Made by a program: the position numbers and the translations under genes
Shown here: in pieces, positions 1 to 25,952 of the stretch
How the letters are laid out: each line of letters begins with the position of its first letter
How positions within the stretch are numbered: the first letter of the stretch is position 1
IMG/VR virus record: IMGVR_UViG_3300032242_000873
Coordinates: 1-31,946 of that record
Direction: 5' to 3' (one strand)
Length of the DNA: 31,946 nucleotides
Origin: a virus
Notes under the pieces: model-generated
The model's database searches: none
What the model saw: only the letters and a program-made list of their open reading frames with translations
Told to the model about the DNA's origin: nothing

Positions 1-198
1 CTGGAGGTTCTGTTTTAGGTGTGGTCTTAGTTGCCGGTGGCTCAGTTTTAGGTGTGGTCTTAGTTGCTGGAGGTTCTGTTTTAGGTGTAGTTTTGGTTGC
101 CGGTGGCTCAGTTTTAGGTGTGGTCTTAGTTGCCGGTGGCTCAGTTTTAGGTGTGGTCTTAGTTGCTGGAGGTTCTGTTTTAGGTGTAGTTTTGGTTG
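1..198. repeat. 33-bp coding tandem repeat, six copies
   Basis: Six complete 33-bp units run from base 1 to 198, with a degenerate seventh starting at 199. On the minus strand each encodes PPATKTTPKTE. Three nucleotide variants occur in the order A-B-C-B-B-C. Bases 12-99 and 111-198 are identical, so the array shows a recent 99-bp duplication on top of the 33-bp unit. It may continue beyond the left edge. Confidence 0.93.
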
Positions 199-949
199 CC
201 GGCGGTTCAGCTTTTTTTGGTGCAGCGCCGGCTTCTCCTTCTGCTTTCTTGAATCTGCCAGTAGTTGCATCACGTTCTGGCATTTTTGGCACCTTTGGTT
301 TTGCTTTCTGTATAGCATCAAGCATTTCCTCGTGTCTGCGTATTTCATTCTTATATGCTGTATCACCAAAGTCTTTGGCTATTTCACTACGTAATTTCTT
401 TTCTTCTAGGTCATGCTTCATAACAGCATAGATTTTACTAGCAATAGTTGCCGCACCATCACCTGTACGTAGTTTTGGATTATCTGTAGGCACAATATTA
501 GCGTACAAGCCAGAATTTACCGTAGTTAACTTTTTAGGCTTCATTTGACCAAACATATTTGAAATGTTATTTGGCTTAAATTTACTTTTTATACTTTCAG
601 CCGCAGTTTCAATTTTTTCTGAATCTGGTTGAGGTACTTCTTCCGGTTCTTCTCCTTGTTGCTGCTTTACGTATCGACCTGTTTTAGGGTCACGAACTTT
701 TTTTTGTTCTGCTAAGATTTTTTTAATCAGCGGAGTAAGAATATGTTCTTTGTAACCAGGTTGACTAGCAAGGTCACGTTGAAGTCTTTGAAGTTCTTCT
801 TTTCCTAGTTTTTTTCCAAGTGCAATCAACTGTTCAATTTGTTTTACAGACAGTTCTCCACTGTTCAGGAGTTCATTAATTTTGTTCTCCTTGAACATTG
901 TCTCAAATACACCTGAGTCTAGCAGTTGCTTGAATACTTCGTTTTTCAT
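1..949 (-). CDS. Probable tail tape-measure/structural protein, N-terminal part (runs off left edge)
   Basis: The frame opens at ATG 949-947, overlapping the stop of the upstream short frame as ATGA, and stays open to base 1, giving 316 residues without a stop. Residues 1-85 are charged and helical. Residues 86-95 and 226-235 carry two copies of an RDxxTGR[YF]xK linker motif. Residues about 155-215 form a charged helical segment (GDGAATIASKIY, then EIRRHEEMLDAI) of a kind I associate with tape-measure proteins of environmental T4-like phages. From residue 249 the chain is an 11-residue Pro/Lys/Thr repeat (PPATKTTPKTE). The position directly after a putative frameshifted tail-assembly chaperone is the lambda gene-H position and supports tape measure. 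The catalytic or hydrophobic C-terminus, if any, lies outside the window, so a tail-associated hydrolase or other hub protein is possible. Confidence 0.5.
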   Translation of the reverse strand, partial: MKNEVFKQLLDSGVFETMFKENKINELLNSGELSVKQIEQLIALGKKLGKEELQRLQRDLASQPGYKEHILTPLIKKILAEQKKVRDPKTGRYVKQQQGEEPEEVPQPDSEKIETAAESIKSKFKPNNISNMFGQMKPKKLTTVNSGLYANIVPTDNPKLRTGDGAATIASKIYAVMKHDLEEKKLRSEIAKDFGDTAYKNEIRRHEEMLDAIQKAKPKVPKMPERDATTGRFKKAEGEAGAAPKKAEPPATKTTPKTEPPATKTTPKTEPPATKTTPKTEPPATKTTPKTEPPATKTTPKTEPPATKTTPKTEPP

Positions 950-1131
950 CTACGTTCAGAATTCCGTTGTTTTATCTTTTCGTTTTCTTCTTCTATATAC
1001 TGCGAAAGCATACTAACGTAAACGTCCCTTTCCCAAGGGATCATTGTTTCCAATTCAGTCAAACTATATTTGTGATGCTGCACTAACGCAAAGTTTGTGG
1101 TATAATAATTTCTTAGGTTATCATGCCGCAT
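946..1131 (-). CDS. Short frame downstream of gp26; probable C-terminal part of a frameshifted tail-assembly chaperone
   Basis: The frame lies -1 relative to gp26, overlaps its 3' end and closes at TGA 948-946. Two expression routes are possible. From the internal ATG at 1131-1129, two bases after the gp26 stop, it gives 61 residues. By -1 frameshifting at 1140-1149 it adds 64 residues to gp26 for a 304-aa fusion. Its core (TTNFALVQHHKYSLTELE, then MIPWERDVYVSML) has the look of the small proteins found next to gp26 in T4-like phages; the tail is a charged helix ending SERR. Its place between gp26 and the probable tape-measure gene mirrors the lambda T region of the G/GT pair, whose product recruits tail-tube subunits onto the tape measure. 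The internal ATG lies in the 5' arm of a predicted stem and has no clear Shine-Dalgarno sequence, which favours frameshifting. Confidence 0.75.
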   Translation of the reverse strand: MRHDNLRNYYTTNFALVQHHKYSLTELETMIPWERDVYVSMLSQYIEEENEKIKQRNSERR

Positions 1132-1134
1132 CAC
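1072..1134 (-). other. Predicted frameshift-stimulating stem-loop
   Basis: On the minus-strand transcript GTGATGC (1134-1128) is perfectly complementary to GCATCAC (1078-1072). After one G/A mismatch (1127/1079) the helix continues with G-C, C-G, A-T and a T/G wobble (1126-1123 with 1080-1083). The loop is about 39 nt. The stem begins 5 nt after TTTTTTC and 8 nt after AAATTTT, within the usual spacing for a stimulatory structure. The 5' arm contains the internal ATG (1131-1129) of the short downstream frame. No folding energy was computed. Confidence 0.6.
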
Positions 1135-1859
1135 TACCCGAAAAAATTTTCGAGGCCCTCCACATCGATAGTATGGTGAAAGCCACACTTCTTGCAGTCC
1201 ATCTCAATTTTCTTGTTTAGTGTTGGTAAGTTATCAAAGAATTGTTCAATTTTGGCAAACTGTTCTTGATTCAACGATTCAATAAACTCCATGATTTCAG
1301 CGGGTTCAGCTTCGTTGGCATAATAGAACTGTTCACCATCAAAAATATGAATGACTGAATCAACAATCATGTTGAATGCCATGTCTGTTACACTTGAATT
1401 TTCATTTACTGTATTAAGTGCAGAGAACTTTGGGTAACTTAACTTGATACTGATATTGTCAGTCAATTGAATCTCATCTTTAATGTCATCATTCTTTGTA
1501 ATCTGAATGTCTAGTAGATTAAACTTAACATCCATCAGATTACCACAAGGTGCATCACCGACAGGATTCTCACACTTATATTTGTTTTCGACTACTTCGC
1601 CCACAGAACGTGCACGTAGTTGAATAAAATAGTATTCAATATCAATGATAGGTAGAGAATCAATATCAACATCCTCTGTCAATGTGCAGTTATGTAATAC
1701 TTGTTTGATATTCTTCTCAATTGTTTCTCTATCTTCTGACTCCATAGCCATCATTAGATTACGTTGTTCTTTCACCAAGAAAGGACGAAAACGAATATGT
1801 TTCTTCGACAGTGGTAAAGTCAGTTCATAAATGGGTGTATCAATTTTTGGTAAAGCCAT
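1134..1859 (-). CDS. 26: gp26-like baseplate hub subunit / tail assembly protein
   Basis: A 241-aa protein of the T4 gp26 baseplate family (T4 gp26 is 208 aa); the N-terminus with FRPFLVKEQRNLMMAMES is characteristic. In T4 gp26 is needed for hub assembly. Four cysteines, C96, C105, C222 and C225, the last two as CKKC, could bind a metal ion. The ATG at 1859 follows TAGGAAA, a fair ribosome binding site. The gene lies 29 nt after the gp54-like gene and belongs to the minus-strand hub/tube operon. The last codons hold a -1 slippery site and the 3' end overlaps the short next frame, so a minor 304-aa extended form is likely. Position before a probable tape-measure gene suggests the pair works as tail-assembly chaperones rather than only as a structural hub subunit. 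Confidence 0.86.
   Translation of the reverse strand: MALPKIDTPIYELTLPLSKKHIRFRPFLVKEQRNLMMAMESEDRETIEKNIKQVLHNCTLTEDVDIDSLPIIDIEYYFIQLRARSVGEVVENKYKCENPVGDAPCGNLMDVKFNLLDIQITKNDDIKDEIQLTDNISIKLSYPKFSALNTVNENSSVTDMAFNMIVDSVIHIFDGEQFYYANEAEPAEIMEFIESLNQEQFAKIEQFFDNLPTLNKKIEMDCKKCGFHHTIDVEGLENFFG
1140..1149 (-). other. Putative -1 ribosomal frameshift slippery site
   Basis: Reading gp26 on the minus strand, the last codons are GAA AAT TTT TTC GGG TAG. Two overlapping heptamers fit X_XXY_YYZ in the gp26 frame: A_AAT_TTT (1149-1143) and T_TTT_TTC (1146-1140). A -1 slip at either one enters the downstream frame and reads CGG GTA GTG ATG. The gp26 stop is only two codons after TTC, typical of tail-chaperone frameshift sites. 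Prediction from sequence only. Confidence 0.75.
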
Positions 1860-5380: not shown

Positions 5381-6751
5381 GTGGCAGGTATTCTTAATAC
5401 AAGAGACTATAACTTATCCAGACTGGAGATTTTAACTTCAGTTGGAGTGGTAGACTTGCGTTTCATTATGACTGAATTGTCGTACCACGAGGACTTGTTT
5501 GGTGATGCAGTTTCTGGTTATGTTTTAGTTACTGAAGCAAACGCATATTCGGAATTATTCTCATTGACTGGTAATGAATTCTTGTATATAGAATTCAGTA
5601 AAACCAAAGATTTAAATGATAAGATTAGTAGAACCTTTCGTGCATATGCATTAGGTAACAGAAAGTTGTCAGGAAATATGACAACAGAATCTTACAAAAT
5701 AAATTTTTGTTCTGAGGAATTGTTCTTGTCTGAGCAGTACAAGGTATCTAAAGCATACACAAATCAAACAATAGATGCAATGGTTACCGACATTTGCACA
5801 ATGAAACCTGGTTTAAACATTGGTCCTAAAAAGTTTAAACCTGAAAACATCAGTAAAACTTATGGCAATTACAGTTTTGTTATACCAAATCTAAAACCAT
5901 TCGATGCAATCAACTGGTTATCAGTATATGCAAGACCATTACCTGAAGATGGCACTGGTGCGGATATGATTTTTTATGAAAATAAAGATGGGTTCAACTT
6001 CAAATCTTTACAGACACTGACGGGACCTAATGCAGTAGTTCATAATAGATACCGTTATGATCCAAAAAACTTGTATGCTCCAGGTGACGGCGATTTCAAT
6101 TTAAATGAAGAAGTTTATAACGTAACCACTTATGAATTTTTAGATTCATACGATTCATTACGTGCAACTAACTCAGGTATGTTTGCCAATCAATTAATTT
6201 CAGTTGACGTTCTGACAAGAACGAGAAAGACAACAGATTTCAATTACATGGACTATTGGAATGATCCAAATACACACGGTTTAAACTGGAATCCAATCAC
6301 CAATGCATATAAAAATAGAAATGGTGATATGGTCAACGAAACAAGTCAAGCAATGTTGAAGTTGGTGTTTTCAAACTTTGATAGTGGTAATTCTCAGGTT
6401 GCTAAAAATAATCCAGGGGCAGTTGCACCCAATATTTTTGCAGAGACTTACATACCATATAGAACAGCACAACTGGCTTTGGCTAACTATACAAGAATGA
6501 AGATTTCTATACCAGGAGACCCAGTTATAACCGTAGGTGAAGTTATATATTTTGAACTGCCATCTAGAAATCCAAATAATCCTACAGTGGATAGATATTA
6601 CTCTGGCTATTACTTGGTGACAGCAGTGAGACATATGATTACAGAAAGTGATTTTAAAACTGTTGTGGAAATAGCAAAAGAAAGTTCAGTTACTCCTTTC
6701 GCTGATCCACCAAGTGATAATCCAACATGGACGGCAGCTGCCGGTAACTAA
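5381..6751 (+). CDS. 27: gp27-like baseplate hub protein
   Basis: A 456-aa protein (T4 gp27 is 391 aa) starting at GTG 5381, one base after the gp53 stop, with AGGA (5370-5373) 7 nt upstream. The N-terminal beta-rich part (YNLSRLEILTSVGVVDLRF) and the middle NLKPFDAINWLSVYARP followed by MIFYENKDGFNFKSL are typical of gp27/gpD-type hub subunits, which form the trimeric ring carrying the gp5 spike. The C-terminal block (MKISIPGDPVITVGEVIYFE, YYSGYYLVTAVRHMI) is the tube-like barrel found in these hubs. It is immediately followed by the gp5 OB-fold gene, its expected binding partner, via a TAATG overlap. Similarity to T4 gp27 itself is weak, so the family is inferred from motifs and neighbours. 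Confidence 0.78.
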   Translation: MAGILNTRDYNLSRLEILTSVGVVDLRFIMTELSYHEDLFGDAVSGYVLVTEANAYSELFSLTGNEFLYIEFSKTKDLNDKISRTFRAYALGNRKLSGNMTTESYKINFCSEELFLSEQYKVSKAYTNQTIDAMVTDICTMKPGLNIGPKKFKPENISKTYGNYSFVIPNLKPFDAINWLSVYARPLPEDGTGADMIFYENKDGFNFKSLQTLTGPNAVVHNRYRYDPKNLYAPGDGDFNLNEEVYNVTTYEFLDSYDSLRATNSGMFANQLISVDVLTRTRKTTDFNYMDYWNDPNTHGLNWNPITNAYKNRNGDMVNETSQAMLKLVFSNFDSGNSQVAKNNPGAVAPNIFAETYIPYRTAQLALANYTRMKISIPGDPVITVGEVIYFELPSRNPNNPTVDRYYSGYYLVTAVRHMITESDFKTVVEIAKESSVTPFADPPSDNPTWTAAAGN

Positions 6752-7062
6752 TGAAAACAGTAAATAATTTTGCAGGTCTCAATGGTTTTGTTTGGTGGGT
6801 GGGTCAAATTGAAGACCGTAGTGATCCTTTAGGTTTGGGTCGTTGTAGAGTTCGCATCTTTGGTTGGCATACAGACAATAAATCTTTGATTCCCACAGAA
6901 AGTTTGCCTTGGGCAGGTGCAATTTTACCCATAAATAATTCAAAAAGTTTTCAATGTCCCGAATTGAATGATTGGGTCATGGGCTTCTTTATGGATGGAG
7001 AAAGTGGACAGTATCCAATAATGATGGGTGTTATACCTGGCATTTCTCCTGTGAGCCAATAA
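6751..7062 (+). CDS. 5: gp5-like OB-fold domain, stand-alone (spike N-terminal part)
   Basis: A 103-aa protein equal to the N-terminal OB-fold of T4 gp5. The segment GQIEDRSDPLGLGRCRVRIF aligns with T4 GVVEDRMDPLKLGRVRVRVV, followed by PTESLPWAGAILPI (T4 PTEKLPWMSVIQPI), GFFMDG and YPIMMGVIPG. In T4 this domain seats gp5 on the gp27 ring. T4 gp5 is 575 aa and continues with a lysozyme and a beta-helix; here the chain stops after the OB-fold and the beta-helix is a separate gene at 7950. The ATG overlaps the gp27 stop (TAATG). A GGAG right after its stop serves the next gene. Confidence 0.87.
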   Translation: MKTVNNFAGLNGFVWWVGQIEDRSDPLGLGRCRVRIFGWHTDNKSLIPTESLPWAGAILPINNSKSFQCPELNDWVMGFFMDGESGQYPIMMGVIPGISPVSQ

Positions 7063-7074
7063 TGGAGAAAAAAG

Positions 7075-7938
7075 ATGGCAGATAATTTATCAGGTGTAAA
7101 TGCAACATCTATAGAAGTAGTAGATGGTGTTGTTAAAGAGAAAAGCCCACCCGTATTTTCTTTTGGTGGTACTTACCTAACTGCAAATGTGCAAACAACA
7201 CCAAACTTAGCAAGAGGTGTTTTAACCAATACTGGAACAGCTTTCTCTAATGGAAACCTAGCTCATGCATGTGATATAAACTTTGTGTTATCGGGTTTTA
7301 ACATTGATGCAACCGGCTTGTTTCCAAACTTTGGCCTGATTACTGCCGCCATCCAGAATGGCAAGAACGCTGCTGCCAGTGTGGTCCGTTCTGCATTAGC
7401 TAAATTGATTGCAGGTTTCAGAGTTGCAATCAAAGCAATCATAGTTTCTTTGAATTTGGATCCATCAGGTGAGCTTTCGGCCGCATTCTCTAAATACAAA
7501 CAGATCATTCGTGAGATTAATGAAAAGATAAAACAAATTGCACAAATTGTTGCAGATGCTGCTTTCTTTTACTATTTGGCACAAAACATAATACAGATAC
7601 TTGAGTGGATAAAAAGTCTTCCTGCTCAGTTGGCAACATTGTTCAGAGACTGTTTGACGAACTTCAATAATTCACTTAAACGTATTCCTTCACAGTTAAC
7701 CGGTTCAATAAAGCAAGCACAAGCAGCATTATCATCTGGATTACAAGGTTCTTTATCAGCGGCTCAAAATGCAGCGGCTGGAGCCACAGTGGATCCAGCA
7801 CTAATTAAAGCAATTAGTGACCCGTTGAATTCAGGAGTTGATTCTATTAATGCAGCAATTGCAGGTGCTAATGCCGCAGGAACAAATGCAATGTCTGGTT
7901 CTTTTGCAAATCAAAAATCGAATTCTTCTCGACCTTAA
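7075..7938 (+). CDS. Helical protein of unknown function between the two gp5 halves
   Basis: A 287-aa protein I do not recognise. Residues 1-70 are beta/loop-like (VFSFGGTYLTANVQTTP, HACDINFVLSGF). Residues about 95-200 are long amphipathic or hydrophobic helices (SVVRSALAKLIAGFRVAIKA, then DAAFFYYLAQNIIQILEWIK), one of which could be membrane-active. The C-terminus is Ala/Ser/Asn-rich and low complexity. No lysozyme catalytic pattern is visible. GGAG (7064-7067) lies 7 nt before the ATG. It occupies exactly the place of the T4 gp5 lysozyme domain, between the OB-fold and beta-helix genes, which suggests a spike- or hub-associated protein, possibly acting on the host envelope. That function is inference. 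Confidence 0.6.
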   Translation: MADNLSGVNATSIEVVDGVVKEKSPPVFSFGGTYLTANVQTTPNLARGVLTNTGTAFSNGNLAHACDINFVLSGFNIDATGLFPNFGLITAAIQNGKNAAASVVRSALAKLIAGFRVAIKAIIVSLNLDPSGELSAAFSKYKQIIREINEKIKQIAQIVADAAFFYYLAQNIIQILEWIKSLPAQLATLFRDCLTNFNNSLKRIPSQLTGSIKQAQAALSSGLQGSLSAAQNAAAGATVDPALIKAISDPLNSGVDSINAAIAGANAAGTNAMSGSFANQKSNSSRP

Positions 7939-7949
7939 GAATATAAATT

Positions 7950-8780
7950 ATGAGTACACCAACGCCACCAAGTTTCTTTAAGCCTTTTCTTGAACCGGAA
8001 TCGGCCGCTAACACAGCATATCCACCGGTATATCCTTACAATACCGTAACACAAACACCAAGTGGCCACTCATTCGAAATGGATGACACTCCACAGCGTG
8101 AGCGAGTTAGACTGCAACACCGTACAGGAACATTTATTGAAATGCATCCAAACGGTGATGAGGTGCACAAGGTATATGGTAATGGTTACACAATCATTGT
8201 GCAAGACAATAATGTGTTGATTACGGGTAATTGTATTGTAAAAATTGAAGGTGATGCAAACATACAGATCACCGGAGATAAAATTGAAACTGTATTAGGT
8301 AACGTAGAGCAACATATCAAAGGTAACTTCACACAAGTTGTTGAAGGTACAGCTAGTATGACCTCATTACAAGACACAATCATTAACGCCGGCGGCGCTT
8401 TAGGTGGAGGCTTAAAAGTCCAAACCGGAGATTATATGTATGTTGACGGCGATTTCTCTGTAGAAGGTGAAGTTGTTGCAACTAAGATATATTCTCAGGG
8501 TCGAGTAGATGCAGGTACAGGCATGAGTGCAGGTGTATTAGGTTTTGTTACTATTACAGGCGGTGTTTCTGTAGGTATTCCTGTAGCTATACCAACAGAA
8601 ATTAATTCTATAGGTCCAATCAACTCGTTTACTTCGGTTAGTGCACCACTTGGTTTATTTGGAATATCATCGTCTATCCTAGGTTTCGATGTTATCAATT
8701 CATTAATATTCGATACACACATACACGCAGCACCATTGGGATTAACAAGCCCACCACTTACAGACATCATTGAGGCATAA
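7950..8780 (+). CDS. gp5-like C-terminal beta-helix spike
   Basis: A 276-aa protein matching the T4 gp5 C-terminal spike. The segment FEMDDTPQRERVRLQHRTGT aligns with T4 QEFDDTPGQERYRLVHPTGT, followed by a series of about eight-residue turns with VxGx or IxGx spacing (IIVQDNNVLITGN, KIEGDANIQITGD, HIKGNFTQVVEGT) that build the trimeric beta-helix. After residue 150 it differs from T4: a Gly-rich beta region ends in THIHAAPLGLTSPP (HxH at residues 257 and 259), resembling the iron-binding apex of P2 gpV-type spikes. No separate PAAR tip gene was seen in the window. The start has no clear Shine-Dalgarno sequence. The protein should assemble with the 103-aa OB-fold protein as the cell-piercing needle. 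Confidence 0.85.
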   Translation: MSTPTPPSFFKPFLEPESAANTAYPPVYPYNTVTQTPSGHSFEMDDTPQRERVRLQHRTGTFIEMHPNGDEVHKVYGNGYTIIVQDNNVLITGNCIVKIEGDANIQITGDKIETVLGNVEQHIKGNFTQVVEGTASMTSLQDTIINAGGALGGGLKVQTGDYMYVDGDFSVEGEVVATKIYSQGRVDAGTGMSAGVLGFVTITGGVSVGIPVAIPTEINSIGPINSFTSVSAPLGLFGISSSILGFDVINSLIFDTHIHAAPLGLTSPPLTDIIEA

Positions 8781-18594: not shown

Positions 18595-21500
18595 ATGTCT
18601 CTAAATTTTAACGTTGGTCCATACTTTGACGATTTCGACCCAACAAAAAACTTCCATCGTATACTATTTAAACCAGGAGCAGCAGTTCAGGCTCGTGAAT
18701 TAACACAGTCTCAAACTATCCTACAGAATCAAATATCAAACTTTGCTTCTGCAATCTATTCACAGAACACACCGGTTGCTGGTGGTCAAGTAACAACCAA
18801 CTTAAACTGCTATTACCTAAAGCTGAATCCTACAGCACCAAGCGGTTCAACTATCACCGCTGCTAACTTTGCTAATCAAATCATCCAGGACGCATCTGGT
18901 GTTGTCCTTGCTAGAGTTATCGCTACAGTTGAAACAACCACAAGCGGTACAGTCATTGGTGACCCACCAACATTGATTATCAGCTACTTGTCTGGTGCAC
19001 ATTTCACCGATGGTATGGTAATTTCAACCACAACCTTGCAGACTACACAGTATGCAACAGTAGCAACATCAAGCACTTCAGCAGGAAATTCAACTGGACT
19101 TTCTTCTACTGTTTCTATTGCTAACGGTACATTCTATATCGTTAATGGTTATTCAGTCTCACAAACAAACGGCCAAAAATATAGTATTGGTAACTTTGTG
19201 GACGTATCTCCACAGACAATCGTGTTGGACAAGTATGACAATACACCTTCAGGTCGTGTTGGTCTACAAATCAATGAAACAATTTATGATTATGTAAATG
19301 ATACTTCATTGTTGGATCCAGCAGTTGGTGCATCGAATTATCAAGCACCGGGTGCAGACCGTTACGTTATTACTCTTACATTAACTTCATTACCGTTGAC
19401 TCCGGGTAATGATGATGGCTTTATTGAATTGTTGCGTATTCAAAATGGTAACATCGTTAAACAAGTTGATGGTACAGTATATTCAACTATTGATGATTAC
19501 TTTGCAAAGCGTGACTATGAAACCAACGGTGACTATATCGTTGAAGGATTGTCATTGACTCCTTCTGCTAATGCTAATACCACCATTAACCAAACAAAGT
19601 ATGACTTGAAAGTTGGTAAAGGTGTAGCATATGTCCATGGTTACAGACTAGAAAACCAATCACAAATTGTTTTAACTAACGATAGAGCGCAGACTACAGC
19701 AAACATTAACAATAATGCAGTGTTTGTTGACTATGGTAACTACTATATTGTGGACACAGCAAACGGTGTTTTTGATATTGGTGTAGTTCCGCAAGTTGAT
19801 TTCCACTCAGTTGGCGCAGACAACATTGTTTCTACAAACAATACAACATATACTTCAACATTGATTGGTACAGGTTTCATGCGTAATATGACATACGTAT
19901 CTGGAACAGGTTCAAACACTAAGACCTACGTATACAACGCTTTTGTATCCGATATTCAATACAACACCTTGACTGGTACAGTTGCTTCAGGTACATCAAA
20001 TTCATTTGTAATCACCGACACAACAGGTAAATTCTCTGCTGTAGCTAATGCTTATTACAATGTAACCGTAAGTGTAACAACTGGTGGTATCACTGACGTT
20101 AGAAACATTGTCAACTATGTTGGTTCAACAAAGACAGCTTACGTTGATAATCTATTCACAATTACACCAACTTCTTCTTCAACATTTAGTTTGAATTTCC
20201 AACAATATGATGTTGAATCTATTGTTAAGACTGTTGGCTCAGGTAACTACGCATTGACAGCTAATGCTAACATTAACTTGGCAACAGGTAAAGTTAATGG
20301 CATTACCACAGGAGATACGATTCTTAACAATCCAGGAACACCTGAGTTGTTGTTCACTGTTGGTTATCCGTATGTTGCACAATTGGCTTCCACCGCATAT
20401 TACTCACAAAGAGTATATCGCAGCAAAACCTTTACTGGTAATACATTGACGATACAAGCTACCTCAGGTAACAGTAGTAGCCCAATCCGTTTTGAAGGTG
20501 CAAGCACATTGTCCGGTGCGGCCGCTGAACAGTTGTTTATCGTTATCGATAACTCGACAGGTAGTATTCTAGATTTCACAACATCAGGTAATACAGTCAC
20601 AATTTCTGGTGATAAAACAACTGCAACGTTTGTTGTAGGTTCCGGTGTTGGTACAAACAAAAACGTAACTGTTATTGCTGAAGTACAAGTAAGTTCAGGT
20701 GATTCTTCTAACTATGTTCTAAAATCAAAGAACTTGATTGTTGGAAATACATCTACTGTTAGCACATCTTTTGGTGGTGCAATTGCTACAAACACAAAAC
20801 AAGACTTGACTAAAGGCCAAGTTATCATCGCAAAAGCTGGTATCACCACAGGCAAAATGTCTCTGTATGTGAATGACGTTAAGCGTATCACAAAGGTTAT
20901 TGATTCCGGTGTAGCAGGAACTGATCCAACTGGCGCATTGGTCAACTATACAGACATAACAAGTTATTTTGTTTTGGATAATGGTCAACGTGACTCATAT
21001 TACGATCATGCAAACATCTCATTGCTTCCTGGTGCTCCTGCTCCAATAGGTAACATTTTGGTTGTGTTTGACTACTACTCACACACTCAAGCATCTTCAG
21101 GTGATGGTTACTTCAGTATTCAATCATACCAAGCAGCAGGCTCAACTTTTGGCGGCGTGTCAACTTCACCAGAAGCATATCCTCAAATTCCATCATATAC
21201 AGCCAACGATGGCGCAGTTTATAAATTGTCCGACTCTATTGACTTTAGACCATGTAGAGTAAACGGACAGACAGCATATGTTTGGGAATATTCAGGTACA
21301 CAATCAGCATCAAATGACATTGGTGTATTGATTCCACAAAACTTAACAAACTTCACCAGCAATTACTTCTACTACTTGGGTCGTAAAGATAAGTTGGTTC
21401 TGACTAAAGATAGAAGTTTCCAAATTGTTCAAGGTACACCTTCTACTGCACCTATTTTACCAGTTGAACCAACGGGTGCATTGGTACTCGCAAACTTGGT

Positions 21501-23766
21501 ACATGACCCTTATACAGCATATGTTCCTGGTGAAATTAATGGTGGAACAAAATCAAATCTTTCGATTGATAAGGTTATACACAAACGCTGGGCAAAATCT
21601 GACATTACAGATTTGGAATCTCGTGTAAACAATCTAGAATATTACACCTCATTAAGCATTCTAGAACAAAATGCACAGTCATTACAAATTCCAGACTCTA
21701 ATGGCCTGAACCGTTTTAAGAACGGTATCTTAGTTGATGACTTCTCATCTTTTGCAACAGCAGATACAACAAATCCTGATTTCTTGTCTAATATCAATGT
21801 TAGACAAAATCAACTATCAGCAATCCAAATTGTTGATAATTATCAGTTGCAAAATCCAGTTGTATTGGCTTCATTGGGAACTTTGGCAAATACTAACACA
21901 TATGCAATTAATAGTATTAATGGAACTCAAACTAACATTTATACTTTGCCGTATACAACAGCAAATGTGGTTATTCAACCTTTAGCAAGTAGTACAGTTT
22001 CTGTTAATCCATTCTCCGTTTCAACACAGCAAGGTACGTTGCAGTTGAACCCTCCGATGGACAATTGGGTTGATAACAAACAGGCACCAGCCGTTTTGAT
22101 TACTGATCCAACATTGCAAATTTATCAAACAACAGGTGGAACAACATTGGTTAACTCTGGTGATTGGCAAACAATTCCTGGAACACCGACTGCAAAAACT
22201 ACCACAACGACCACAGCTATCAGCGGCGGATCTCTAACAACGACAACTACACAGACATATAAAAGTCAATTACAAAACACTGTTTCGAGTGCATACAATC
22301 CGACCTCAAGTATATTTGGACAAAACAATGGTTATTTGACAAACATTGCAGTTCTTCCATACATCAGACCACAACAAATCATTGTTCGTGCAACTGGTTT
22401 ATTGGTTAACTCTAATGTATCTACTTTCTTTGATGGTCAAGATGTATCGAGTTACATGACAGGTCCAAATGTAATTGAGTTGACTGGTGTTACTGGAACA
22501 TTCAAACAAGATGATATTGTAGGTTTCTACGTTTCAAGTCAGTTCTATCCTGTTGCTCGTGTTATTCAAGTCTACAATTATCCTAACGGTACACAATCTC
22601 GTTTGTATGTTGCCGAATTGGTTGGTGTACCAAATACAGTTGGTTCAACGGTACTACAAAATGCATTTTTTGATATAACAGGTGCATATATTGGTTCAAC
22701 AGCAAGTGGTAGCGTACCCGCAAATGCTCTAACAAGTATACACCAAAGTGGTGCTATTAGCGGTGTTGGTGGTGGTTATTCAAACACATTAAATTCTAAT
22801 ACAACAACACAATTTTATGGAACACCAATCGTTCAAGGCTATTCAACATTCTTGAATAACTATGGTATTTGGGGCGATGCTGTAAATGGCACCACTTATA
22901 ACGCAACAATTCCTGTTGTGTTTACAAAAGCAGATACATGGACAATTACAGTTGGAGCAAGTGGTCCAGTAACATTTAAAGCTAATGGAACAAATATTGG
23001 TTCTTCATTACCTGCCGGAAATGCAGGCAGCACAACAACATTCACTTACACAACTACAGGTGCCGCTACAGTGAATTTTGGTTGGGTTGCAACAAGTTCA
23101 GGTACAACAACTTCCGCATTGGCTTGGACAATTTCAGATTCTACAAATAATATACTAACTACATCCATTAACCCTCCAGTTAATTACATTAACGCAGGAA
23201 CTGAAGTTATAATGCCACAAGGCGGCGCTTTGTTTGTCGGTGCAACTCAACTTAGACTTGATCCTGCGTCTGCATCTAATGTAGCAAACTACTATGTTGG
23301 TTCTACCATCAACATTACAACAAAACAAGTTTATTCTTATAATGTATCTGCTACGTATGTTGCTCCTCCACCAGCACCTTCAGGTGGTGGCGGTGGTTGC
23401 TGTGTGGTTGCAACTGCATTGACTGCAAATGGAGAATGGACACCAGAGAAGAAAAATGAACTGGTAGAATGGTCTATAAATACTCTCGATAAGAGTTTCC
23501 TTGGAGAAAGATTGCATAGAGGTTATCACGTTGTTGCATCTAAAGTTATTATCCCATACTTCTTTGGTACAAATAACAAGATAGTTCGTGCTTATTCTAA
23601 ATGGTCGTTTACCAATGCTACAAATATGGTACAAGGTAAAAATTTCAACCCACTCTCTATACCAAACAGTGCAGTGTGGATCGTTGCCATGATGGCCGCA
23701 GGTTTAGTATCAAGCAAAGAATTTGCAGAAACAAGCTGGAAATCTCTTTACAAAGATAAAAAGTAA
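18595..23766 (+). CDS. Giant baseplate structural protein, DUF4815-type, with C-terminal CC-ATA box
   Basis: A 1723-aa protein, the largest in the window. The N-terminus (VGPYFDDFDPTKNFHRILFK, PGAAVQARELTQSQTILQNQ) is the DUF4815-type domain of environmental T4-like phages. Near residue 1002 comes DLESRVNNLEYYTSLSILEQ, then NGLNRFKNGILVDDF, and further on ATGLLVNSNVSTFFDGQDVS, all hallmarks of the giant structural protein of these phages. At residue 1597 five glycines lead into CCVVATALTANGEW and a helical end (LDKSFLGERLHRGYHVVASK) resembling CFI-box C-terminal domains, roughly residues 1602-1723. The usual continuation of this family is instead encoded by the next gene. AAAGGA (18584-18589) precedes the ATG. 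It probably builds the peripheral baseplate to which fibres attach; the precise role is unknown. Confidence 0.8.
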   Translation: MSLNFNVGPYFDDFDPTKNFHRILFKPGAAVQARELTQSQTILQNQISNFASAIYSQNTPVAGGQVTTNLNCYYLKLNPTAPSGSTITAANFANQIIQDASGVVLARVIATVETTTSGTVIGDPPTLIISYLSGAHFTDGMVISTTTLQTTQYATVATSSTSAGNSTGLSSTVSIANGTFYIVNGYSVSQTNGQKYSIGNFVDVSPQTIVLDKYDNTPSGRVGLQINETIYDYVNDTSLLDPAVGASNYQAPGADRYVITLTLTSLPLTPGNDDGFIELLRIQNGNIVKQVDGTVYSTIDDYFAKRDYETNGDYIVEGLSLTPSANANTTINQTKYDLKVGKGVAYVHGYRLENQSQIVLTNDRAQTTANINNNAVFVDYGNYYIVDTANGVFDIGVVPQVDFHSVGADNIVSTNNTTYTSTLIGTGFMRNMTYVSGTGSNTKTYVYNAFVSDIQYNTLTGTVASGTSNSFVITDTTGKFSAVANAYYNVTVSVTTGGITDVRNIVNYVGSTKTAYVDNLFTITPTSSSTFSLNFQQYDVESIVKTVGSGNYALTANANINLATGKVNGITTGDTILNNPGTPELLFTVGYPYVAQLASTAYYSQRVYRSKTFTGNTLTIQATSGNSSSPIRFEGASTLSGAAAEQLFIVIDNSTGSILDFTTSGNTVTISGDKTTATFVVGSGVGTNKNVTVIAEVQVSSGDSSNYVLKSKNLIVGNTSTVSTSFGGAIATNTKQDLTKGQVIIAKAGITTGKMSLYVNDVKRITKVIDSGVAGTDPTGALVNYTDITSYFVLDNGQRDSYYDHANISLLPGAPAPIGNILVVFDYYSHTQASSGDGYFSIQSYQAAGSTFGGVSTSPEAYPQIPSYTANDGAVYKLSDSIDFRPCRVNGQTAYVWEYSGTQSASNDIGVLIPQNLTNFTSNYFYYLGRKDKLVLTKDRSFQIVQGTPSTAPILPVEPTGALVLANLVHDPYTAYVPGEINGGTKSNLSIDKVIHKRWAKSDITDLESRVNNLEYYTSLSILEQNAQSLQIPDSNGLNRFKNGILVDDFSSFATADTTNPDFLSNINVRQNQLSAIQIVDNYQLQNPVVLASLGTLANTNTYAINSINGTQTNIYTLPYTTANVVIQPLASSTVSVNPFSVSTQQGTLQLNPPMDNWVDNKQAPAVLITDPTLQIYQTTGGTTLVNSGDWQTIPGTPTAKTTTTTTAISGGSLTTTTTQTYKSQLQNTVSSAYNPTSSIFGQNNGYLTNIAVLPYIRPQQIIVRATGLLVNSNVSTFFDGQDVSSYMTGPNVIELTGVTGTFKQDDIVGFYVSSQFYPVARVIQVYNYPNGTQSRLYVAELVGVPNTVGSTVLQNAFFDITGAYIGSTASGSVPANALTSIHQSGAISGVGGGYSNTLNSNTTTQFYGTPIVQGYSTFLNNYGIWGDAVNGTTYNATIPVVFTKADTWTITVGASGPVTFKANGTNIGSSLPAGNAGSTTTFTYTTTGAATVNFGWVATSSGTTTSALAWTISDSTNNILTTSINPPVNYINAGTEVIMPQGGALFVGATQLRLDPASASNVANYYVGSTINITTKQVYSYNVSATYVAPPPAPSGGGGGCCVVATALTANGEWTPEKKNELVEWSINTLDKSFLGERLHRGYHVVASKVIIPYFFGTNNKIVRAYSKWSFTNATNMVQGKNFNPLSIPNSAVWIVAMMAAGLVSSKEFAETSWKSLYKDKK

Positions 23767-23780
23767 TTTTGGAAAAATAA

Positions 23781-25952
23781 ATGACAACTCAAACACGTTC
23801 AAGTATTTACAATTATACAGCTAAGATTACAGCATATGATCCTGTGACTAAACTTGTCACATTAGATACCCCTGTAAATTTATCTTTAGGTACCAATGCT
23901 TATGTCGGCGGTGACATTAGTTCTAACTATAGTATTAGTGGTGTGTTAACTAAGGTGGATAGTGCAGTCCAATCAGGACAAAAACTTTCTAAGCCTACGA
24001 CCGATGATAATGGTAACTATGTTGGTATCTTTAATGTGCCTTCAACAACGTTTCAAACTGGTTCTAAAATATTCCGAATCGATAATAGAACAATTATAAC
24101 TGATGCAACGACTGCAACAACATTTGCTGAAGGCACTTTCTTTGCTTCTGGCTTGTCTACAACTTCACAGAAATTAGATTTTGGGCCATCAGTTGATTCT
24201 GCTGCACAATCATTTACACAAGTTAATCAACAATCTTCAACACAGATCAGTGTAACTCAAACGATTACTTTAAATCGTAGAGATCCAGTTGCACAAACAT
24301 TTATTATTGAAAAAGACAACTTTCCAAATGGTGTATTTCTCAACTCAATCAAATTGTTTTTCCAAAATAAACCAGCAGGTAATGCACCGATTACAATATC
24401 TATTATTCCAACAGTTAATGGTTATCCAGGTGGCACAGCATTAAGTTACTCGACTGTAACATTAACACCAAGCCAAGTTAATGTCTCAGCAACTCCACAC
24501 TACTTAGATTCCACAACATATACTCAATTTCAATTTGATGCGCCAGTGTATGTTCAATCTGGTGTACTATATGCTATTGTTGCAAAATCAAGTTCTCCAG
24601 ATTACATTCTTTATTTGGCACAACAGAACCAATTTGCAGTTCCTTCTACAGCAAAAATACTACCAACAGACGCAAACCCAGCAAATCCAACAAAAATTGG
24701 TGCGGCACCTTATGTTGGTGCGTTGTTTGAGTCACAAAATTCCATCACATGGACAGCAGACCAATCTAAAGATTTGATGTTTGTTATTGACCGTTGTGTG
24801 TTCTCAACCACAACCACAGCAAAAGTTCCATTTGTTATTCCCAATAATCTTCCATATAGAAAACTTGGAACACAAGATATTCTTTATAAGTTGGATGCAA
24901 ATAGTGTATCTCAAACAACAGGCAACTTTGCTAGAGATTCAGTAATTGATGCGTTAAATGTTACAACAACAGATTTTTCTCCAACTGCAACACAAATCAA
25001 TTACACATATCAAGCAACATTATTGAATGGTTATAATCCAACTCCAGAAACCAGTATTACTCCAGGTAGATTGGGTAGTCCAACACCAGATCATGTTTAT
25101 TTGAGTGATGGACAAGGAGAACGTGCATTGGTGAGAGCATCCAGCAACTCGTTTAGTTTGTATGCAACTATGTCTACAAAAGATCCTAGCGTGTCTCCAA
25201 TCATTTCAGATGACGGTGTTTCATTGTATTCTATTCGTTATCAAATCAACAACATGGGTATAGGTAACAATGTAATTTCTTTGGTGAATGCAGGCAACGG
25301 ATACTCAAGTCTAACATCTTCAAATATTTCAGTATCTGCACCAGATGTTGGCTCAAATACTGCGGTTTTGGGACTAACAGCAAATGCAAACGGTGCAATC
25401 ACATCGGTGTATGTTGCATATCCAGGTTCAGGTTACTTAACAACACCAACAGTTACGGTCACAGGAGCAAATGGAGTTCAAGCAATCGTAAACATCATAG
25501 GAGAAACATCTCCTAAAGGTGGTAACTCTATAGCTAAATACTTTACTAAGAAGGTTGTGTTGGCTCCAGGTAATGATTCTGGTGACTTGAGAGTATTCTA
25601 TAGTGCATATCGTCCAATAGGAACAAATGTATATGTGTACTACAAGATTCTTTCTTCACAAGACACACAACCATTCGAGTCGGGTAATTGGCAATTGATG
25701 ACAACAATGAATGGTGGGTTAAATCTTTATTCAACAAATAGAGACAACATCATCGAATATGAATGTGCACCAGGCGTATTTGCAAGTGGTGTAGCAAATA
25801 ACTATATTAGTTACTTGAGTACCAACGGTCAAAAATATACTTCTTTCATTCAATTTGCTATTAAGGTTGTATTGGCTACAAATGATAATACAACCGTTCC
25901 ATTTTTAACCGACATTCGTGCATTGGCGTTACCACCAGGAACTGGTATCTAA
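23781..25952 (+). CDS. Second half of the giant baseplate structural protein, separate gene
   Basis: A 723-aa protein starting 15 nt after the 1723-aa gene and in a different frame. Its sequence is what normally follows in the giant DUF4815-type proteins of cyanophage-like myoviruses: FNVPSTTFQTGSKIFRIDNR, then AEGTFFASGLSTTSQ, RDPVAQTFIIEKD near residue 168, GVFLNSIKLFFQNKP, NGYPGGTALSYSTVTLTP, YVGALFESQNSITWTADQSK and DLMFVIDRCVF. The C-terminal 230 residues include the Gly-Tyr beta module (SLVNAGNGYSSLTSS; YVAYPGSGYLTTPTVTVTG; about residues 496-573). The start (MTTQTRSSIYNY) has no Shine-Dalgarno sequence, only an AATAA stretch. It probably forms a complex with the preceding product in the outer baseplate. 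The split is judged from memory of the family and needs alignment. Confidence 0.7.
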   Translation: MTTQTRSSIYNYTAKITAYDPVTKLVTLDTPVNLSLGTNAYVGGDISSNYSISGVLTKVDSAVQSGQKLSKPTTDDNGNYVGIFNVPSTTFQTGSKIFRIDNRTIITDATTATTFAEGTFFASGLSTTSQKLDFGPSVDSAAQSFTQVNQQSSTQISVTQTITLNRRDPVAQTFIIEKDNFPNGVFLNSIKLFFQNKPAGNAPITISIIPTVNGYPGGTALSYSTVTLTPSQVNVSATPHYLDSTTYTQFQFDAPVYVQSGVLYAIVAKSSSPDYILYLAQQNQFAVPSTAKILPTDANPANPTKIGAAPYVGALFESQNSITWTADQSKDLMFVIDRCVFSTTTTAKVPFVIPNNLPYRKLGTQDILYKLDANSVSQTTGNFARDSVIDALNVTTTDFSPTATQINYTYQATLLNGYNPTPETSITPGRLGSPTPDHVYLSDGQGERALVRASSNSFSLYATMSTKDPSVSPIISDDGVSLYSIRYQINNMGIGNNVISLVNAGNGYSSLTSSNISVSAPDVGSNTAVLGLTANANGAITSVYVAYPGSGYLTTPTVTVTGANGVQAIVNIIGETSPKGGNSIAKYFTKKVVLAPGNDSGDLRVFYSAYRPIGTNVYVYYKILSSQDTQPFESGNWQLMTTMNGGLNLYSTNRDNIIEYECAPGVFASGVANNYISYLSTNGQKYTSFIQFAIKVVLATNDNTTVPFLTDIRALALPPGTGI

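Follow-up and report, generated by a model that had tools for sequence, protein, structure and literature searches.

The question raised by this locus is whether gp26 of a T4-like phage and the short open reading frame behind it are two genes, or one gene whose product is made in a short and a long form by programmed frameshifting. The window, by which we mean the whole stretch of DNA analysed, spans 31.9 kb of a T4-like virus record and contains genes for the tail tube protein, the DNA end protector, head closure and the tail tube cap, along with baseplate wedge, hub and fibre genes. Our analysis suggests that gp26 is very probably a short tail assembly chaperone (TAC-N) and that a -1 slip on T TTT TTC, probably aided by a Shine-Dalgarno-like element, gives a fusion protein (TAC-NC).

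The gp26 gene and its -1 frame extension

The gp26 gene (1134..1859, minus strand) encodes a zero-frame product of 241 aa that matches PF12322, T4_baseplate (E 4.3e-59), and positions 5-232 of 282 in phrog_150 (E 1.5e-65). As the original prediction had it, the 3' end reads GAA AAT TTT TTC GGG TAG in frame on the minus strand (1149-1134). The -1 frame (P0002) is open from the slip site to a stop codon at 946-948, and the extension (946..1143, minus strand) consists of the second slip Phe followed by 64 codons that begin R V V M R H D N. Translation confirmed the predicted fusion of 240 + 64 = 304 aa with the junction ENFFRVV. The extension matches phrog_634, 'baseplate hub assembly catalyst' or gp51 (E 1.4e-29), and aligns with the C-terminus of T4 gp51. 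It also matches the C-terminal end of phrog_150 (positions 232-278, E 3e-6), the family whose first part matches gp26.

The AlphaFold (AF2) model of gp26, with a pLDDT of 85.5, matched many gp26-type hub proteins among predicted viral structures, while the search against solved structures returned no significant match: the HK97 tail assembly chaperone 2ob9 (prob 0.10) and 3fgx (prob 0.47) were weak, non-significant hits with E about 3. A sequence search of solved structures with gp26 gave zero matches. The extension is predicted to be helical with modest confidence, and its sequence search of solved structures yielded only chance coiled-coil matches (gp41), which were rejected.

Conservation of the slip site and of the frame relation

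The comparison drew on 80 loci from viral contigs with 70-83% identity to gp26 and on 124 more distant ones, yielding a set of 205 loci (81 close and 124 more distant) that was dereplicated to 131 sequences. The heptamer T TTT TTC (1140..1146, minus strand) ends one codon ahead of the gp26 stop; all 81 close relatives have it in register, and T TTT TT[C/T] was in the correct register at 182 of the 205 loci, counts that cannot be read as probabilities because related sequences are not independent. The codons for the slip Phe pair were TTT TTC in 127 and TTT TTT in 4 of the dereplicated sequences, and the base 5' of the pair was T in 131/131. The residue encoded there varies (N, S, G, D or A), yet its codon ends in T in every case. 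As a control we used the internal Phe-Phe pair at residues 207-208 of the same genes, whose codons vary freely (TTC TTT 61, TTT TTT 32, TTT TTC 15, TTC TTC 11) and which is preceded by any base. Judged against this control, the slip codons are held constant to a much greater degree than the amino acids require.

The original prediction had named two overlapping in-frame heptamers. Both are present, in X XXY YYZ register with gp26, but only T TTT TTC is conserved. The second, A AAT TTT (1143..1149, minus strand), is specific to the lineage: the codon before TTT TTC is AAT, AGT, TCT, GGT, GAT or GCT across relatives, and within the window's clade it is AAT in 31/55 and otherwise AGT, TCT or GGT. 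We therefore rejected AAATTTT as a slip site, and it is probably dispensable. Over-representation was likewise discarded as evidence, since both heptamers occur at or below chance in this AT-rich sequence, with 8 copies of TTTTTTC in the window against 11.8 expected. The heptamer is not rare, and what counts as evidence is where it stands, its codon register and its conservation.

When the loci were searched with a profile built from the extension, 201/205 had it in the -1 frame with respect to gp26, and none had it in the 0 or +1 frame. The profile gave no detectable match at four loci, namely T4, one Ackermannviridae record and two Vibrio VP-1 records. Neither the heptamer nor the -1 relation was lost in the close relatives, and the predicted frameshift thus survived the comparison.

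Some variants of the locus were noted alongside. In Ackermannviridae (L191-L205, L090, L091 and L094) gp26 is likewise followed by the extension in the -1 frame, but T TTT TTC is absent; the site there is a nearly invariant GAR ATT TTC ATT TAA (TTTTTGAAATTGA), and no start codon lies nearby. The two Vibrio VP-1 loci (L088 and L190) also have a -1 extension after gp26 without T TTT TTC, at the site GTT TTT CGC TAA TG. Three metagenomic copies (L028, L037 and L055) have premature stops in the extension and another (L177) has one in gp26, perhaps due to assembly or sequencing errors.

The downstream frame could instead be an independent gp51-like gene, started by translational coupling at the in-frame GTG ATG that directly follows the gp26 stop in the window (1129..1134, minus strand; TAGTGATG), with the heptamer being incidental. 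Many records do list the 'baseplate hub assembly catalyst' as a CDS of its own, and most public records are annotated in this manner. However, the start is not conserved: 54/81 close relatives lack an in-frame ATG in codons 1-20 of the -1 frame, 52 of these 54 have no GTG, TTG or CTG in the first 10 codons either, and an ATG is missing from the first 20 codons at 26/85 cyanophage-type loci. Translation from the ATG at 1131 only, the outcome that the original prediction had set against itself, is thus at odds with the lack of this ATG in two thirds of the close relatives.

Moreover, the -1 frame is already coding upstream of the proposed start. In close relatives without a near ATG, the differences in codons 2-19 of the -1 frame were distributed as 761/450/1786 over codon positions 1/2/3, with 1465 synonymous versus 946 nonsynonymous codon differences, so that by its substitution pattern the frame behaves as coding sequence ahead of any possible start. 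A separate gene would also have to account for the fixation of the slip codons and for a GGAGGG that is too distant (~21 nt) to serve the proposed start and lies ~10 nt from the heptamer. With no conserved start and a -1 frame that is coding before it, ribosomes must enter from gp26, and we consider a separately initiated gene very unlikely. The conserved slip site and -1 relation, together with the unconserved ATG, support programmed -1 frameshifting well and independent initiation not.

Proposed stimulators upstream and downstream of the slip site

A Shine-Dalgarno-like element (GTGGAGGG; 1156..1163, minus strand), a proposed stimulator of the dnaX type, precedes the heptamer, its GGAGG ending 10 nt 5' of it. 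The window's clade keeps GTG GAG GGN at codons -6 to -4, with GTG in 52/55 compared to 11% of Val codons and GAG in 41/55 compared to 19% of Glu codons. The mean predicted energy of the duplex with the anti-Shine-Dalgarno sequence was -9.6 kcal/mol in the clade versus -5.4 under synonymous recoding, and the pairing was stronger than expected from such recoding (p<=0.05) in 87% of 45 clade members. By these codon and pairing statistics, the element is under selection beyond protein coding in the window's clade.

Relatives of the cyanophage type have a weaker Shine-Dalgarno-like element by the same measures (-7.2 versus -5.4; 24%) and a hairpin 3' of the slip site that is built from several unrelated stem sequences. 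The hairpin is stronger than synonymous recodings of the -1 frame (mean z -2.76, 74% at p<0.05), whereas no such hairpin was detected against synonymous recoding in the window's clade (z -0.30, 8%); a downstream hairpin in the window itself was rejected after comparison with shuffled sequences (z -1.33). A trade-off between the two elements within lineages was not seen among the non-window loci (Spearman 0.10, p 0.40), and the contrast, as far as predicted pairing and folding can tell, is between lineages only.

In the window's clade, pairing of GGAGG with the 16S rRNA 10 nt upstream probably aids slipping, as in dnaX, and in the cyanophage relatives the downstream hairpin probably takes the role of the stimulator. 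The dnaX frameshift has the heptamer A AAA AAG with a Shine-Dalgarno-like element upstream and a hairpin as well. The likeness to E. coli dnaX lies in the spacing of about 10 nt 5' of the slip heptamer, and the differences lie in the heptamer itself and in the hairpin, which is not detectable in the window's clade.

A Shine-Dalgarno-like element without a hairpin in the window's clade, with a hairpin in the cyanophage relatives, is possibly a new detail. We lean slightly towards the broader reading that sister T4-like lineages share the slip site and its products and differ in the helper, mainly upstream rRNA pairing in the window's clade and mainly a downstream hairpin in the cyanophage type, with the T4 group having two separate genes instead of slipping. 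If true, this would be a natural series in which the recoding signal was rewired while the product pair was held constant. It offers a comparative set in which one slip site is seemingly served by either of two stimulators, and which is directly testable.

That the -1 product comes from slippage of RNA polymerase on the T6 run is less probable still than a separate gene, for although the constraint does fall on a homopolymer run, six Ts are short of the about nine or more that such slippage usually takes, and the run is an exact T TTT TTC in codon register that is paired with an element acting on the ribosome, either Shine-Dalgarno-like or a hairpin.

For ribosomal frameshifting, the series of events would be as follows. 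On reaching the codon pair TTT TTC, some ribosomes would shift back by one base on T TTT TTC, bypass the TAG one codon further on and produce a long form of 304 aa (TAC-NC, the counterpart of lambda GT), while those that do not slip would produce gp26 as the short chaperone (TAC-N, like lambda G). Cyanophage gp51 and the C-terminal part of T4 gp51 are homologues of the 64-aa helical C-terminal domain that the long form would carry. If lambda is a guide, gp26 alone would coat the tape measure protein, and the less abundant fusion would recruit tail tube subunits. The slip site, the frame relation, the -1 coding constraint and the homology of both parts are established by sequence comparison, and we infer the occurrence and rate of slippage, the roles of the stimulators and the chaperone action.

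Known chaperone genes and the neighbourhood of gp26

The locus resembles lambda G/GT in having a short chaperone and a minor -1 fusion with a C-terminal extension, a likeness for which no sequence similarity is claimed; it differs in that the slip heptamer of lambda is not TTTTTTC and in that no tape measure gene is recognisable directly next to it here. P2 E/E' is likewise a -1 frameshift chaperone pair of a myophage, from another protein family. In the abstract of the 2022 study taken up below, the frameshift is said to be conserved in several T4-like groups, with T4 using genes 26 and 51 instead.

In our searches, T4 gp51 consisted of a PF12322 domain (1-201, E 8e-55) followed by the same C-terminal extension as in the window (200-245; E 6e-13 with the fusion profile and the search size set to 1000), and it matched phrog_150 end to end. 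T4 gp26 is the short domain alone, and the T4 gp51 gene is located on the opposite strand. With a short gp26 and gp51 as a natural two-domain fusion, T4 thus has both forms as two genes. The long form from the window, PF12322 plus the gp51 C-terminal domain, fits this family, and by homology the two products match TAC-N (gp26) and TAC-NC (gp26 + gp51-like).

The original prediction of a G-like gp26 with a T-like -1 extension is supported by conservation, frame and domain matches, but its suggestion that no such cassette had been described for the gp26 family was mistaken. A 2016 review still listed T4 as an exception (PMC5009743), and TAC genes were since assigned in T4-like phages (Vladimirov, Gautam & Davidson 2022, Virology 566:9-15). 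In that assignment, the gp26 family is TAC-N, a gp51-like sequence is TAC-C and the slip site is poly-T, as in the window, and T4 encodes a short gp26 and a long gp51 in two genes; the two-gene arrangement that we found in T4 agrees with this assignment. Two later papers cite Vladimirov et al. 2022, one for some T4-like phages that carry one short and one fused copy (PRFect, PMC10885494) and the other for poly-T frameshift signals in T4-like TAC-N genes (PMC12846349). The TAC locus of Vandenendeviridae and Andersonviridae also has a poly-T -1 slip that ends TAC-N and a continuous -1 frame, with the motif GTTTTT versus TTTTTTC in the window (PMC12846349). The frameshift in T4-like phages is thus already reported, and the present locus is a well-supported further example. 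A large group of environmental phages would have a single frameshifted chaperone gene where two hub proteins (gp26 'baseplate hub' and gp51 'assembly catalyst') are usually annotated, which leaves many public annotations incomplete.

The next ORF (2..949, minus strand) encodes a virion protein with a Thr/Pro repeat tail; its start overlaps the stop of the extension (ATGA) and it runs off the window. The suggestion that it is a tape measure gene found no support: no tape-measure match was found among PHROG and Pfam families, and complete homologues are 567-830 aa long, some with an endolysin-like domain. With no recognisable tape measure gene next to the extension, the usual order G-GT-tape measure is not evident in the window. 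The only tape-measure-like match was weak (phrog_4200, E 5.8e-5) and located 6 kb away on the other strand; in Pelagibacter phage HTVC008M, the tape measure gene lies two genes on. A 33-bp tandem repeat of 6.2 copies (window 12-215) encodes the PPATKTTPKTE repeat of ORF 2..949, and the record ends inside it.

Elsewhere on the plus strand, a gp5-like hub/lysozyme (phrog_430 positions 9-110 and 327-452) appears to be divided between two ORFs (6751-7062 and 7950-8780), between which a 287-aa ORF (7075-7938) weakly matches tape measure proteins. Similarly, the plus-strand ORFs at 18595-23766 and 23781-25952 match positions 3-1324 and 1299-1611 of phrog_358, as if one protein had been split.
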